DNA of 32,940 nt from NCBI GenBank assembly GCA_902523435.1, contig CABYZM010000017.1:1-32940 (forward strand), in the 5' to 3' direction. Under the pieces are notes generated by a model that was given only the letters and a program-made list of their open reading frames with translations, searched no databases and had not been told where the DNA came from. This DNA comes from an uncultured SAR116 cluster alpha proteobacterium. Its GTDB lineage: Bacteria; Pseudomonadota; Alphaproteobacteria; Puniceispirillales; Puniceispirillaceae. A program made the position numbers and the translations under genes. This document shows positions 22,111 to 27,294 of this stretch, one piece after another (the first letter of the stretch is position 1; each line of letters begins with the position of its first letter).

Positions 22111-22569
22111 ATGGACAAATTGGACCGGTCAATACTTTCCATTCTTCAGGAAAATGCGCGGATTTCTAATGTTGATCTGGCTGACAGAATCGGTTTATCC
22201 GCATCAGCCTGTCTGCGGCGCGTCGCCCAGCTGGAAAAGGATGGCCTTATTACTGGCTACCATGCAAATCTTAGCCTGGAGAAGCTTGGCCATTCTGTTC
22301 TGGTGCTGGTGCATATTACACTGCAGGGCCAGTCAAAAGAAATGCTGCAGGATTTTGAGACTGCAGTCGGCAATATACCCCAGATTCTAGCCTGTTTTTT
22401 GCTGGCTGGCGAAAGTGACTATCTGTTGCGGGTAGCGGCAAAAGATGTGGCTGATTATGGTCGGATACATTCAGATTTTCTTGCAGCATTGCCACATGTT
22501 ATGCGCATGGAAAGTAATTTTGTGTTGCGTGAAGTCACCAACCGCGGCCTGTCTGCAGACAGTATTTAA
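22111..22569 (+). CDS. Lrp/AsnC-family regulator, probable regulator of alanine dehydrogenase
   Basis: A 152-residue regulator: N-terminal helix-turn-helix (LDRSILSILQENARISNVDLADRIGLSASACLRRV) and a C-terminal RAM ligand domain (VLVLVHITLQG, GESDYLLRV). The ATG at 22111 was chosen because AGGAGG at 22101-22106 precedes it and the family starts MDKLDR; an open frame reaches back to 22060. Its divergent position next to ald is the usual arrangement for AldR-type activators that respond to alanine or other amino acids. Its stop shares bases with the convergent selO stop. Confidence 0.9.
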   Translation: MDKLDRSILSILQENARISNVDLADRIGLSASACLRRVAQLEKDGLITGYHANLSLEKLGHSVLVLVHITLQGQSKEMLQDFETAVGNIPQILACFLLAGESDYLLRVAAKDVADYGRIHSDFLAALPHVMRMESNFVLREVTNRGLSADSI

Positions 22570-23960
22570 GCGCGCAAGCGCCGACCAAAAGCACGGATGT
22601 CCTGAAGGGATTGGGTGAATTCCGACCAATCATCTGAGGCAGCAATTGGTGCCCATATCCGCTCAACAACATCAATTTCAAGCGAGATAAGCGGGGCGGC
22701 CCGCATAGCCTGAACAGCTGTTTTGCTCTGTCGCGGCGATAATGAAGATGCGTAATCAGCGAGCTTGACCAGTTCAGCAGAATTACGCCAGGCTGGATCA
22801 GCAAACTTGTCCGGCCTGTGCCCCCCATACAACTCGTGAAACAGCTTGTCCCAACCGATTTGGCTTGCTTTGGCAGCCTCAAAGAACAGAGCTGACAATT
22901 GGCTTGCATCGTCATCATTGCCCTCTAAGCCGAGGCGCCAGCGTAACCGGCGGGCGAGATTGCGTTCCATGGAAGAATAGAAGCTTGACAGCGTTTCTGC
23001 CAATACCTCCGCGTCTACAATTTCCACAAAACAGTCTGCCAGCCGGCACAAAGCCCACATTGCTGCTGCGGGCTGGCGGCCGTAAGCATAGCGGCCTGTT
23101 TGATCGAAATAGGCGGCAGTAAAACCTGGATCGCAATAAGGCAGAAACCGCCATGGCCCGTAATCAAAACTCTCCCCTGTGATGTTGAAATTATCTGTAT
23201 TCAGCACGCCATGAACAAACCCAGCGACCATCCATCCCGCAACCATCTCAGACACACGCTCTGCTAGTTCCGGCAAAAAAGATAGGATCAGCTGTTTATA
23301 TGCCAGATCTGAGTCGAGTTCAGGATAGTAATGACGCACTGTGTGGCGCAGCAACTTTTCAAGATTGTCTGCCTGCCCCAAATAGGCAAGTCGCTGAAAA
23401 CTTCCAATTCTAATATGACTATGCAGCAGCCGAACCAAAACAGATGAGCGTGTGGGAGACGGCTCATCATGCCGCTCAAGTGCTTCACCAGTTTCAATCA
23501 GACTGAAGCTCTGTGATGTCGGCACATTTAGGGAAGCTAGCAATTCGGTCGCCAAAACCTCACGCACGCCGCCTTTCAAGGTCAGGCGTCCATCAGCAGT
23601 GCGTGCATAGGGCGTTCGCCCAGACCCTTTAGTTCCCAGATCAAGAAGGTGACCTGTCTGCTGGTCTTTATATTGCGCAAACAAAAAACCCCGCCCATCC
23701 CCCAGCTCCGGATTGTAGGTACCGAACTGATGCCCGTGATAGCGAAGCGCAAGCGGCTCAGACAAGCTGCCCTTTAAAGGTATAAACCGGCCAAAATGAT
23801 CAATGAATTGTTCGTCTGAAAGGTCCTGAAGGCCAATTTGCTCTGCAGCCCGCTGATTGCGATAACGGAGAATATACTGGGGAAAGCGCGCCGGGGTAAC
23901 GACGTCATAAAAGGCCGGGCCAAGCCGGGTATGTATAGTTTGTGGCTCTGCTGTCGACAT
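22566..23960 (-). CDS. selO: Protein adenylyltransferase SelO (YdiU)
   Basis: A 464-residue pseudokinase-fold enzyme that transfers AMP to Ser, Thr or Tyr of target proteins. Conserved blocks are YHGHQFGTYNPELGDGRG, DLGTKGSGRTPYARTADG, LKGGVREVLATELL, HGVLNTDNFNITG and DYGPWRFLPYCDPGF. AGGTGA lies before the ATG at 23960; a TTG one codon upstream is less likely. The length is slightly shorter than the E. coli protein, with no sign of a C-terminal selenocysteine motif. In known members it is linked to redox stress and S-glutathionylation. Confidence 0.95.
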   Translation of the reverse strand: MSTAEPQTIHTRLGPAFYDVVTPARFPQYILRYRNQRAAEQIGLQDLSDEQFIDHFGRFIPLKGSLSEPLALRYHGHQFGTYNPELGDGRGFLFAQYKDQQTGHLLDLGTKGSGRTPYARTADGRLTLKGGVREVLATELLASLNVPTSQSFSLIETGEALERHDEPSPTRSSVLVRLLHSHIRIGSFQRLAYLGQADNLEKLLRHTVRHYYPELDSDLAYKQLILSFLPELAERVSEMVAGWMVAGFVHGVLNTDNFNITGESFDYGPWRFLPYCDPGFTAAYFDQTGRYAYGRQPAAAMWALCRLADCFVEIVDAEVLAETLSSFYSSMERNLARRLRWRLGLEGNDDDASQLSALFFEAAKASQIGWDKLFHELYGGHRPDKFADPAWRNSAELVKLADYASSLSPRQSKTAVQAMRAAPLISLEIDVVERIWAPIAASDDWSEFTQSLQDIRAFGRRLRA

Positions 23961-24107
23961 CAATTGTCACCTAACACGGATTTTCAGTCGACTTTCGCAA
24001 TTTCGACTTTGGAAGCGTGGGCAGAATAGACAAGCAAAATTTACCTGCCTAGCCTATTTTTCATAAAAGGAGTAATCCACTTCTAATCCAACCAGGAGAA
24101 TAGTGAT

Positions 24108-24424
24108 ATGGATGCATTTGTTTCAGCTCTGCAGCCAATTGAAACCGCACAAGGCCTACCAAACAGCTGTTACACTGACCCAGCTATGTTTCAAATTGAA
24201 AAAAGCAGCCTCGCTCCAAACCAGATGGGCTGAGTTTGAGCAGGAACTATATTTCGGCGGCGATGTGGAAAGATGTGTTAATGGAAGATATCGCGGTTTT
24301 AGAAGGTATGCAAGCTGGACGTATGGCCCCGTCTTATGACGGTGGAAAATTTTCTGCAGTTATGGACTTTCCAACACATCATTTTTATAAATGGGTGGCG
24401 CAACGTTTGATACAGACAGGCTAA
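24108..24424 (+). pseudogene. Remnant of a Rieske ring-hydroxylating oxygenase alpha subunit
   Basis: The ATG at 24108 has a good ribosome-binding site (CCAGGAGAA) and encodes an N-terminus like family members (GLPNSCYTDPAMFQIEKSSL), but a TGA occurs at 24231. In a second frame from about 24260 the family C-terminus is recognisable (EDIAVLEGMQAGRMAPSY, then FPTHHFYKWVAQRL) and ends at TAA 24424. The whole middle is missing, including the Rieske Cys/His cluster and the mononuclear iron site. About 320 bases remain of a gene that is usually above 1,100. The function would have been oxygenation of an aromatic or quaternary-amine substrate. It cannot be active. Confidence 0.75.
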
Positions 24425-24463: not shown

Positions 24464-25189
24464 TTAAATAGAGCCGCTGTTCTGCAGCTCAGCTTCGAAC
24501 ATTTGGCTAAGCTTACCTGACAAAACATAGTCACGGATAAAATCACCAAGCCGCTCAAATTCAGTGTAAAAACGAGTTCCTTTTGCCTCTCCTAGACCTT
24601 TGAATTCAGCAGACATTTGGCGGACAAGCGACAAATCAGATAGAGGCGGGGCAAGAACAACATTTAGCCCCTCAAGAATTTGAGAAATAGCAGACAGGTC
24701 GCGTTGTGCAGGAGGAATGCGGTTGGGAACGATGATAAGGTGGGGGGTAACAGACCCACTGCTTTCTTTCCGCTCATCCATCTCGCGCACAAATTCAACA
24801 GTTGGCCGTAAATCAGCCCAGGACAGTGAAGTTGGGATGATAATACATTCACACATCATCGCGATTTGCCAAACATTACCCGGCCACCCTGCGCCAGTAT
24901 CCACAATGGTCAGAGACTCTGCATTCGAGCGCATGCGGCGCATGATACTGTCCAGCGTAACAAGACTAAGACCATCAAACCGATCGCTGACAGGAACATG
25001 ACGGATATCACGTTCGTCAGCAACAGAACCAAGCAGTTCAAAGGATGTACCTTGACGATCTGTATCCAACATCTGAATCGAGCGTTTAGGAAAACATGTC
25101 CTAAAATAATCATATAGAAAAGCCGAAATCGTGCTTTTCCCCACACCGCCTTTGATGTTACCCACAAAAATGGACTGGCCTTGTTCCAT
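24464..25189 (-). CDS. Orphan ParA/MinD-like P-loop ATPase
   Basis: A 241-residue protein with a deviant Walker A motif GNIKGGVGKST (residues 10-20), the second conserved aspartate region MLDTDRQGTSFELLG (about 40-54) and a switch-like TIVDTGAGWPG (about 93-103). These place it with ParA/MinD/MipZ ATPases, which position DNA or protein assemblies. No parB or minE-like gene is adjacent and the window is not near a visible replication origin, so it is not an ordinary chromosome ParA. AGGAT precedes the ATG. It is the third gene of a same-strand group with two single-pass membrane proteins (gaps 114 and 132 bases). Confidence 0.75.
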   Translation of the reverse strand: MEQGQSIFVGNIKGGVGKSTISAFLYDYFRTCFPKRSIQMLDTDRQGTSFELLGSVADERDIRHVPVSDRFDGLSLVTLDSIMRRMRSNAESLTIVDTGAGWPGNVWQIAMMCECIIIPTSLSWADLRPTVEFVREMDERKESSGSVTPHLIIVPNRIPPAQRDLSAISQILEGLNVVLAPPLSDLSLVRQMSAEFKGLGEAKGTRFYTEFERLGDFIRDYVLSGKLSQMFEAELQNSGSI

Positions 25190-25303
25190 TTTTTATCCTG
25201 TCTTTATATTTAAAGTTCATAACTCTGCAAAATAACTGCCAATGTATCATAAACGCCATAATTAGGACAGTTTAAAGCTCTACCTTACCATTTTAAGGCA
25301 ATC

Positions 25304-25930
25304 TTAAAAAGAAACAGGAGAACCCACCCAAACCAGCCTTTGTTTTCTGTCACAATAACCCACAGACAGACTGTTGGCCACTGAAGACAGATTATCTAAC
25401 AAAGTAGCCGGCTGGACAATAATCACGCCTGTCCAATTTTCTAGCCGACCCTCCCAGCTCTGTCCAGGAGCAGAGATATAAATAGGCGAAGGTAAACCGC
25501 GGCAACTTGCCAGCAAGTCACCCGAATGCGGCACATCCACAAAGGCAAAAGCAGGGGCGGTTGCATGATCAGCCGAATAAATATTTTTTAAACCTTCGAG
25601 AGGTTGTCCAGGAGCAACCATATCCTGGAAACAAGTGGATAAAGGCTTCTGAGCACGCTGACAACGTTCAGGGGTAAGTCCTGCATTCCGTATTCGCACT
25701 TTATGAGACGCTGCGATCCAGTCAGCAACAGACTGGGCCCGGCTGGTCATTTGAACAGTATGGTTTTTCATTATCTGGTTATTAAAAAACACAGCCCCAA
25801 AAACAAACAGGCAAAACAGACCTGTAATAAAAATACTGACTTCGAGTTGGGATAAGCGCCGATCTAGAATGGCTTGTTCATGCAGGTTTGTATGAGCAGT
25901 TCCTTTGCTTGCCTGTTGTTCTTTTGCCAT
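25304..25930 (-). CDS. Single-pass membrane protein with cysteine-containing exported domain, unknown function
   Basis: A 208-residue protein not recognised as a known family. Residues 1-30 are cytoplasmic and charged. A transmembrane segment follows (about 31-52, SIFITGLFCLFVFGAVFF), then an exported domain with four cysteines (ERCQRA, STCFQD, ASCRGL, GYCDRK) that could form two disulfides. The segment before the helix, RRLSQLEVSIF, has a Glu at the fifth place after the arginines and loosely recalls type IV pilin-like signals, but the usual Gly before the cut site is missing. It lies between the ParA-like gene and another membrane protein, all on the minus strand. Confidence 0.6.
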   Translation of the reverse strand: MAKEQQASKGTAHTNLHEQAILDRRLSQLEVSIFITGLFCLFVFGAVFFNNQIMKNHTVQMTSRAQSVADWIAASHKVRIRNAGLTPERCQRAQKPLSTCFQDMVAPGQPLEGLKNIYSADHATAPAFAFVDVPHSGDLLASCRGLPSPIYISAPGQSWEGRLENWTGVIIVQPATLLDNLSSVANSLSVGYCDRKQRLVWVGSPVSF

Positions 25931-25967
25931 CAGCTAAACTTCATCATCCTCTAATTTACCAATATAA

Positions 25968-25980
25968 TTGCCTCAGGCAA
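25968..25980. repeat. Short perfect palindrome between two membrane-protein genes
   Basis: TTGCCTCAGGCAA is symmetric about a single central base. It lies in the 132-base gap between the two membrane-protein genes and could be an operator half-pair or the base of a small hairpin. Evidence is limited to the symmetry. Confidence 0.3.
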
Positions 25981-26062
25981 AGAGCATAATCAACTGCGAT
26001 GACCTTTACTATGGTCAGTCTTGTCGGTTATTTGACATTGGAAAAGACTTGGAAAAATCAGA

Positions 26063-26617
26063 TCAGGATATAGATGATAATTCGCGCGCCTGAAGATATA
26101 ATGAACGGGTTTCGTCGATATAGATGTCGCGGGTGATTTGACCACCCTGATAGAGGCCGCGTAGTCTAACCATCTCCTGCTCAATAAGCCGAAGGTGGTC
26201 CGCTGTAGAAATTGGGTCTTTTACATCCAAAGAGGGTGCTATCTGGTCTGCAGGAGTTGATTTTTGTCTTGGGCGTTTGAAAATCTGAAAATCTTCAACT
26301 TGCTCTGATAACAATTCAGAATTTTCTATTATATTTGCGCTCTGTGCAGCTAAGGCGTCACTCTCTTCAGGCTGAGTGGATTTGGAAATGATAGATTCAG
26401 GCGCTAGCGTTTTAGCTCTAGATGAGTCAGTAGCCTCTCCTTCCTTATAAGATAAGTTGCTTCCGTATGATCGGCCACGAAAAGCAATTAGCATAATAAG
26501 AACTAATAATATCCCGAGAACCAAGCTTAGCAGTATAATCAACATCTGCGCCGGATCGGTTACCCCGAACATGGAGAAAAGGTCAGTAACAGAAACTGGA
26601 AGCTGTATGTTAGTCAT
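26063..26617 (-). CDS. Membrane-anchored protein with charged, helical C-terminal tail, unknown function
   Basis: A protein of about 184 residues from the ATG at 26617; a TTG at 26653 would add 12. After a short N-terminus (residues 1-24) it has one transmembrane helix (about 25-48, MLIILLSLVLGILLVLIMLI). A low-complexity Ser/Glu-rich linker follows, then a C-terminal helical segment (STADHLRLIEQEMVRLRGLYQGG, then DIYIDETRSLYLQARE) resembling a SHOCT-like or coiled-coil dimerisation tail. The topology suggests a cytoplasmic tail. No known family is recognised. It is first of the three-gene group ending with the ParA-like ATPase. Confidence 0.55.
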   Translation of the reverse strand: MTNIQLPVSVTDLFSMFGVTDPAQMLIILLSLVLGILLVLIMLIAFRGRSYGSNLSYKEGEATDSSRAKTLAPESIISKSTQPEESDALAAQSANIIENSELLSEQVEDFQIFKRPRQKSTPADQIAPSLDVKDPISTADHLRLIEQEMVRLRGLYQGGQITRDIYIDETRSLYLQARELSSIS

Positions 26618-26811
26618 AGCTACCGTTGTGCATGAAACACCCGCAAATATCAACTATCAATCGCGGCTAAATTGGTGCAGAACAAATAAAAAACAGAAGA
26701 AATAAACAACAAGATTTTCGTTTGATAGGCGGCATAAAATGCTCGCCATGTACAACCTTTGATGCCTGAAGTGACTAATAAAAGCTTTGATGATGGACAG
26801 ACCACTGATAG

Positions 26812-27294
26812 TTTTTTTCTCACGACATGGGCCAAGGTTCGGTTGAAAATTATGAATTCTTGTATAAGTTCAGAGCGAGATCAAATTCGCAGCCTGCCAA
26901 ACCACAACTTGGCTACTCTCAAAGGGCTAAAAGGTAGCCTGACTAGCCGCCTAATCAATAGACTTGACTATTCTCCGCAGAAAGCTATGCGCGCAGGGTG
27001 AGATGGAGCAGATATTGAACTCATCATTGCCGCATTAATCCATGATGTTAACAAAACACTGCACCAGAAAATCATTCCCAGATGTCCGCAATAATTATTC
27101 GGCCCTTTCCCTTTGATAAGTAAGCATACATTCTGCAAATGCATAGTCTGTTCCAGATGTATTATTATGCAGATAAGTTAGGTTTGGAAAAAGATGTTAG
27201 AAATATCCACAGCGAGCATGAATTATTCAATGCGGCTGTGAAATTCTGTCAAAAATGGAACCAGATACCTTCTGTTCATGAATATATAAAATAA
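26812..27294 (+). pseudogene. Degraded HD-domain phosphohydrolase (COG4341-like)
   Basis: Pieces of one protein appear in order but in changing frames. At about 26818 a segment reads FSHDMGQG then SVENYEFLYKF, like the family N-terminus. In a second frame comes INRLDYSPQKAMRAG, then an in-frame TGA at 26999-27001, then DGADIELIIAALIHDVNKTL with the HD dyad. Back in the first frame are LQMHSLFQMYYYADKLGLEKDV and a C-terminal FCQKWNQIPSVHEYIK ending at 27294. At least two frame changes and one nonsense codon are needed, so it is inactive. Identification rests on remembered family patterns rather than an alignment. Confidence 0.6.

Follow-up and report, generated by a model that had tools for sequence, protein, structure and literature searches.

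Three minus-strand genes of a SAR116 bacterium survive from a collapsed type IV pilus locus and include a putative ParA-type positioning pair

Three adjacent genes of an uncultured SAR116 bacterium are what is left of a type IV pilus locus that collapsed; they did not evolve as a three-gene unit. With a probability of about 0.6, two of the survivors, a ParA-family ATPase and a membrane protein (P3), form a working membrane-anchored positioning pair, and the third (P2) is a former pilin on its way out. The window, i.e., the whole stretch of 32,940 nucleotides that was analysed, is one contig of a 1.5-Mb assembly (a SAR116-family MAG, 64% complete). The genes and the neighbouring features are as follows.

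selO, 22566..23963, minus strand: Pfam SelO, E 1.3e-134; marks the ATPase end of the ancestral locus
Rieske oxygenase 3' remnant, 24224..24409, plus strand: tblastn match to residues 333-399 of 401
ATPase, 24464..25189, minus strand: 241 aa; ParA-family, ParF-like fold
P2, 25304..25930, minus strand: 208 aa; pilin-derived membrane protein
P3, 26063..26617, minus strand: 184 aa; single-pass membrane protein, predicted N-out/C-in
HD8 remnant in two frames, 26873..27267, plus strand: tblastn pieces covering residues 34-96 and 95-165 of 203

The initial annotation had described three minus-strand genes in a row, and both the coordinates and the single hydrophobic segments of P2 and P3 were confirmed. 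Homologues of all three genes occupy the equivalent syntenic position in related genomes; since, in addition, dN/dS of the ATPase is well below 1, the genes are not chance ORFs. For P3 a longer TTG start exists at 26653, and the homologues align from near the ATG. The number of promoter-like sites (9) showed no excess over the shuffle mean of 7.0; terminator-like sites numbered 6, with a shuffle mean of 2.9. The selO gene is the same neighbour in relatives, and according to the tblastn mapping the Rieske gene is full length at the corresponding place in relatives. The gene at the other boundary of the pilus locus, HD8, bears a name referring to an HD domain, which we take as a presumptive label. 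As a separate observation, both boundary genes of the ancestral locus are broken in the window, whereas many relatives have them at full length.

A single-contig genome of the window's family, G014, was used as the reference for the intact locus. Its cluster comprises PilC (T2SSF), PilB (T2SSE with MshEN), two genes without a Pfam match, a PilM-PilN fusion and P3, followed by a secretin (PilQ), a prepilin peptidase (PilD), a Sel1-repeat gene, PilT (T2SSE) and a prepilin, so that the P3 homologue lies between pilMN and pilQ. The prepilin, which carries the Pfam N_methyl motif and adjoins pilT, is the relative of P2. Beyond it lie STAS-, PP2C- and ATPase-like genes and an Mla-like set, and the cluster ends with the ATPase, a Rieske-type gene and selO (the STAS-, PP2C-, ATPase-, Mla- and Rieske-type labels were given by sequence reading). 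The initial annotation had named scattering of the three genes among relatives as evidence against its proposal; in the literal sense such scattering is seen in G014, where the intervening pilus genes and others push the homologues apart to a span of about 13 kb. In the pilus-bearing genomes the STAS- and PP2C-like genes and the Mla-like set separate the ATPase from the pilus genes, and the tie between ATPase and pilus is therefore one of cluster and not of operon.

Among the 61 genomes of the family, a full or nearly full pilMN was found only in G014, G044, G045, G046, G052, G053 and G059. T2SSE scored over the Pfam cut-off in 8 of the 61, none of them in the window's genus. G034, which has 7% contamination, was excluded from the pilus-bearing set: a 3.5-kb contig carries its pilus-type ATPase, 38% identical to that of G014, together with a peptidase.

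Several other features of these loci were recorded. A 1035-aa Cas9-like protein (L047:10992-14099; Pfam RuvC_III, HNH_4, Cas9_a) is encoded in G014 about 6.6 kb from the ATPase gene. In pilus-bearing genomes, the STAS/PP2C/ATPase-like set by the pilus cluster (L046:15466-17873, L064:6958-8962, L065:6677-7722) resembles a partner-switching regulator, the names being given by reading, and parts of it persist beside P3 in G009 and G053. The Mla-like transporter set adjoins the ATPase in G014, G043-G046 and G059 (L047:86-3428, L064:2461-5840) and is missing at the corresponding place in the mapped pilus-less loci.

The loci of relatives, most of which are draft MAGs, were mapped by comparing 48 fetched stretches with the G014 proteins and with profiles. 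A locus was counted as contiguous and pilus-less when one contig spans it and no pilus gene is present there save pilMN, pilC or pilQ stumps. There are 21 such loci: G000-G006, G031, G009, G012, G015, G019, G021, G024, G029, G034, G040, G041, G047, G054 and G056; in three of them, the g7 genomes G034, G040 and G041, no HD8 boundary gene was observed next to P3. P3 is present in 21/21 and a full-length ATPase in 19/21; G019 has a truncated gene, and in G021 none was detected. Eight loci (G009, G012, G015, G019, G024, G029, G054, G056) retain stumps of pilMN, pilC or pilQ next to P3, which indicates that the pilus genes were lost and not inserted later. In the ATPase tree (33 rows, 8 labelled pilus-bearing, with a long-branch warning for G059 and g7), pilus presence and absence needs five changes, at least four of them forced by well-supported branches; gain and loss are undecidable from this tree, and it is the stumps that argue for loss. 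In G009 (L050:9749-10930), the first 133 residues of pilMN now adjoin the last two thirds of pilC; a 404-aa open frame is present at the pilMN part, and a deletion may thus have created a chimeric gene. In the eight genomes of the window's genus, neither a T2SS/T4P ATPase over the Pfam cut-off nor PilMN, PilB or a secretin was detected (0/8 each). An unsampled pilus elsewhere in the genus was considered and rejected, as none was seen in these eight genomes, four of which are at least 96% complete.

P2 had been described as a membrane protein with a four-cysteine exported domain. Its exported cysteines C90, C100, C143 and C193 are indeed all invariant in a ten-row alignment; a further cysteine is seen within the hydrophobic segment. 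Over nearly the whole mature length the window P2 aligns with the canonical prepilins of G045 (E 4e-16) and G014 (E 5e-13), and glutamate at the pilin +5 position (E30) is invariant in the 10 rows. Like type IV pilins, P2 thus keeps Glu+5 and the four cysteines along with similarity over most of its length, and by homology and this glutamate it is a derived type IV pilin. Unlike them, the window P2 has lost Gly-1 from the prepilin leader, and the search of its genus turned up no prepilin peptidase. Gly-1 of the cleavage site is replaced by Arg in the window and by Ala in G006, and is kept in G004 and G005. The prepilin peptidase (Peptidase_A24) was found in 0/8 genomes of the genus, G004 and G005 included; a control search gave a match in 12 of 14 well-known genomes. 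Since Arg stands for Gly-1 and no genome of the genus yielded the peptidase, the window P2 is most likely a membrane protein that is left uncleaved.

The structural model of P2 (pLDDT 79, pTM 0.70) contains a 53-residue N-terminal helix followed by strands. Foldseek and VIA-align gave no convincing match with a PDB pilin, which does not imply a different fold; a P2 profile that included the canonical relatives matches pilin chains across the N-terminal helix. A single-sequence search found P2 in 9/61 family genomes, and profile searches on the fetched loci added G005, G059 and G047, the last with a copy interrupted by an assembly gap. Six of the seven g1 genomes carry an intact P2, and G047 has the gene apart from this gap; in G002 it is interrupted by stops. 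A candidate P3-P2 fusion in G047 (a 424-aa frame) was rejected, as the frame runs across a stretch of N. P2 is therefore expendable, being broken in G002 and absent from most relatives, and the functional trio proposed in the initial annotation is not supported.

The ATPase matches Pfam CbiA/ParA with a score over the gathering cut-off (E 3.9e-8). The deviant Walker A motif KGGVGKS (K13-S19) is invariant in 31 aligned sequences, and this alignment contains 46 invariant columns, the nucleotide site included. According to the predicted structure (pLDDT 85, pTM 0.87), the nearest fold is that of ParF/TP228 ParA (Z 23.6, rmsd 2.2, 203 residues), followed by MipZ, FleN, MinD and Soj (Z 20-21). The deviant Walker A motif and the ParA fold place the protein in the ParA/MinD superfamily. 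As the initial annotation had it, the ATPase stands without ParB, MinC or MinE: no match to these families was found among ten scanned proteins (the trio and seven neighbours). Homologues, with fragments counted, are present in 45/61 genomes of the window's family. Of 385 genomes of the class, 5 contained a homologue at E 1e-15, all belonging to the same family, so in the samples searched (61 family and 385 class genomes) the ATPase was found only there.

The resemblance to ParF/TP228 ParA, a small partition ATPase with the same fold and the deviant Walker A motif, raises the question of whether the protein is a conventional partition ATPase of plasmid or chromosome type. The match to NCBIfam ParA_partition (47 bits) is far under the 180-bit cut-off, and PHROG 164 'ParA-like partition protein' is matched with E 2.4e-17. 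Such a role is nevertheless highly improbable: there is no ParB- or ParG-type partner among the scanned neighbours, no iteron-like array near the ATPase beyond two-copy short repeats, and no match at E 1e-5 in 72,556 plasmid records, while the chromosomal place near selO is fixed in relatives. The phage search gave a single weak match (29% identity over 75%). A plasmid origin of the gene was rejected on the plasmid, phage and repeat results, and the conventional plasmid ParA with a nearby centromere, one of the two counter-cases named in the initial annotation, found no support in the repeat scan or the plasmid records.

Selection on the three genes differs. For the ATPase, dN/dS was 0.015-0.14 in the 18 pairs, out of 20, that allowed a finite estimate, and in all five pairs shared with selO the ATPase was lower (0.03-0.05 vs 0.09-0.23). 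No ratio was obtained where synonymous sites were saturated. P2 gave 0.20 and 0.27 in the two estimable pairs of five. Whole P3 gave 0.16-0.62 in the pairs with an estimate; across eight pairs the C-terminal 41-47 residues gave 0.01-0.27 and the linker 0.20-1.05. A slow C-terminus joined to a faster linker is the pattern that a tether with a docking end would show.

These values bear on the reading in which ATPase, P2 and P3 are all non-functional leftovers awaiting loss. It is consistent with the broken P2 of G002, the ATPase truncated in G019 and undetected in G021, the broken Rieske and HD8 genes flanking the trio in the window, and the 14/61 family genomes that yielded neither ATPase nor P3. 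For P2 alone this explanation holds well. For the ATPase it is disfavoured by the strong purifying selection and the invariant nucleotide site, and for P3 the constrained C-terminal segment speaks against it; as an account of all three genes it is unlikely.

P3 has one hydrophobic segment, the C-flank of which is net positive and carries a charge at least equal to that of the N-flank in 37/37 homologues (a tie in G014). From this positive flank the long tail is predicted to be cytoplasmic, with the N-terminus outside, in line with the charged cytoplasmic tail noted initially. The tail contains a short hydrophobic-basic motif (DFQIFKR in the window) and terminates in a conserved segment, which in the window reads IEQEMVRLRGLYQGGQITRDIYIDETRSLY. 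By profile, P3 was found in 43/61 family genomes. The basic pair of the motif is kept in 36/37 homologues, counting the variants recognised by inspection in G020, G023, G026, G044, G045 and G046; G015 passed the strict expression only. The exception is G021 (Gln-Gln), which is also the sole contiguous locus without a detected ATPase, a single case; G019, in which just the final third of the ATPase is left, retains the motif. Pfam SHOCT gave no match in 15 P3 members. The P3 C-terminus showed a weak likeness to SHOCT, with an hhalign probability of 68% over 20 columns in local mode and 6% in global mode, and a best score of 10.9 bits vs 6.9 for the best shuffled control.

The ATPase and P3 agree in status in 55/61 family genomes (both present in 41, neither in 14), a concordance partly inflated by adjacency and MAG incompleteness. 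P3 occurs without the ATPase in G021 and G053, and the ATPase without P3 in G025, G043, G055 and G057; each of these last four genomes has either an assembly break close to the locus or an ATPase match that is itself fragmentary. The synteny comparison suggested in the initial annotation thus yields a mixed result: ATPase and P3 are mostly kept or lost together, and P2 is lacking in most relatives. In pilus-less loci of groups g1, g3, g5, g6, g7 and g9, P3 adjoins the ATPase or lies within about 2 kb of it. The pair is dispensable, since the searches of G018, G030 and G060, each with a completeness of 93% or more, yielded neither gene.

The two proteins could also act separately, the ATPase performing a pilus-independent task with an unlinked partner, for example nucleoid-based placement of another complex, and P3 being a minor pilus-locus protein kept for a reason of its own. 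Persistence of P3 in G019 and G021, where no full ATPase was found, fits this possibility, as do the place of the ATPase outside the pilus-gene operon in G014 and its position beside the Rieske gene or selO irrespective of whether a genome has the pilus. It is rendered rather doubtful by the joint presence or absence in most genomes, by the proximity of the two genes in pilus-less loci of six groups, and by the decay of the P3 motif in the one contiguous locus that lacks the ATPase. Being co-kept, membrane-anchored and provided with a fast-evolving tail that has a conserved end, P3 is a natural candidate for the partner of the ATPase. Preservation of the ATPase after pilus loss suggests that the pair is still used for something besides the pilus.

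The pilus locus was lost from between the flanking genes, and three of its genes survive. Under the preferred reading of a positioning pair, P3 would be an inner-membrane protein whose tail extends into the cytoplasm, where the conserved tail end, the basic motif or both would dock the ATPase, and the ATP cycle would place P3, plus whatever it holds, within the cell. In pilus-bearing relatives, where the P3 gene is flanked by pilMN and pilQ, the pilus machine would be this cargo. As the pilus is gone in the window's genus and the ATPase is tightly conserved, the cargo would have changed to another envelope target, or P3 itself would be the target. P2, a former pilin probably no longer maturable, would be on its way out. 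Of the proposal that the trio positions an envelope structure, the ancestral tie of ATPase and P3 to a type IV pilus locus is supported; a role of P2 is not supported, and the contact of the two proteins, their positioning activity and their present cargo are inferred.

Comparison with known systems places the pair as follows. PMC10241942 states that ParA-family ATPases place their cargo via a linking partner protein, that these partners are very diverse, and that many ParA/MinD ATPases are termed orphans because the partner has not been identified. In the partners described there, a positively charged disordered N-terminus meets the ATPase; P3 differs, as its N-terminus is predicted to be outside. 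PMC13170226 describes CpaE as placing the pilus machine in Tad pili and as carrying, like TadZ, a receiver-like domain. According to the Pfam scan and the model, the window protein is the 241-aa ATPase domain alone; unlike CpaE/TadZ, it belongs to a PilB/C/MN/Q/T-type locus and persists after pilus loss. By description, P3 can be likened to FipA (PMC11620751), a small membrane protein with a conserved cytoplasmic domain that serves a nucleotide-binding placement factor. The partner of FipA, FlhF, is a pole factor and an SRP-type GTPase for flagella, whereas the candidate partner of P3 is a ParA-family ATPase.

Among the open-access papers found on SAR116 and type IV pili, and on ATPases of ParA-like or MinD-like type in connection with such pili or with positioning, no title or displayed abstract describes the locus, and words beginning with 'pili' or 'pilus' were absent from the main text of the SAR116 papers searched. 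PMC12262181 calls SAR116 bacteria ubiquitous in surface waters.

It is a tentative idea, possible though not favoured, that the ATPase and its membrane partner, having once placed a type IV pilus, were re-used independently in several lineages for positioning some other envelope structure. What an orphan ParA/MinD ATPase carries is difficult to guess; in these loci the presumed ancestral cargo was stripped away several times, and the ATPase was kept with one membrane protein. The stripped loci thus name a likely partner of the ATPase, and the pilus-bearing and pilus-less relatives form a test set for cargo change in ParA systems. If re-use for another cargo is true, SAR116 would offer a natural series in which ParA systems switch their cargo.
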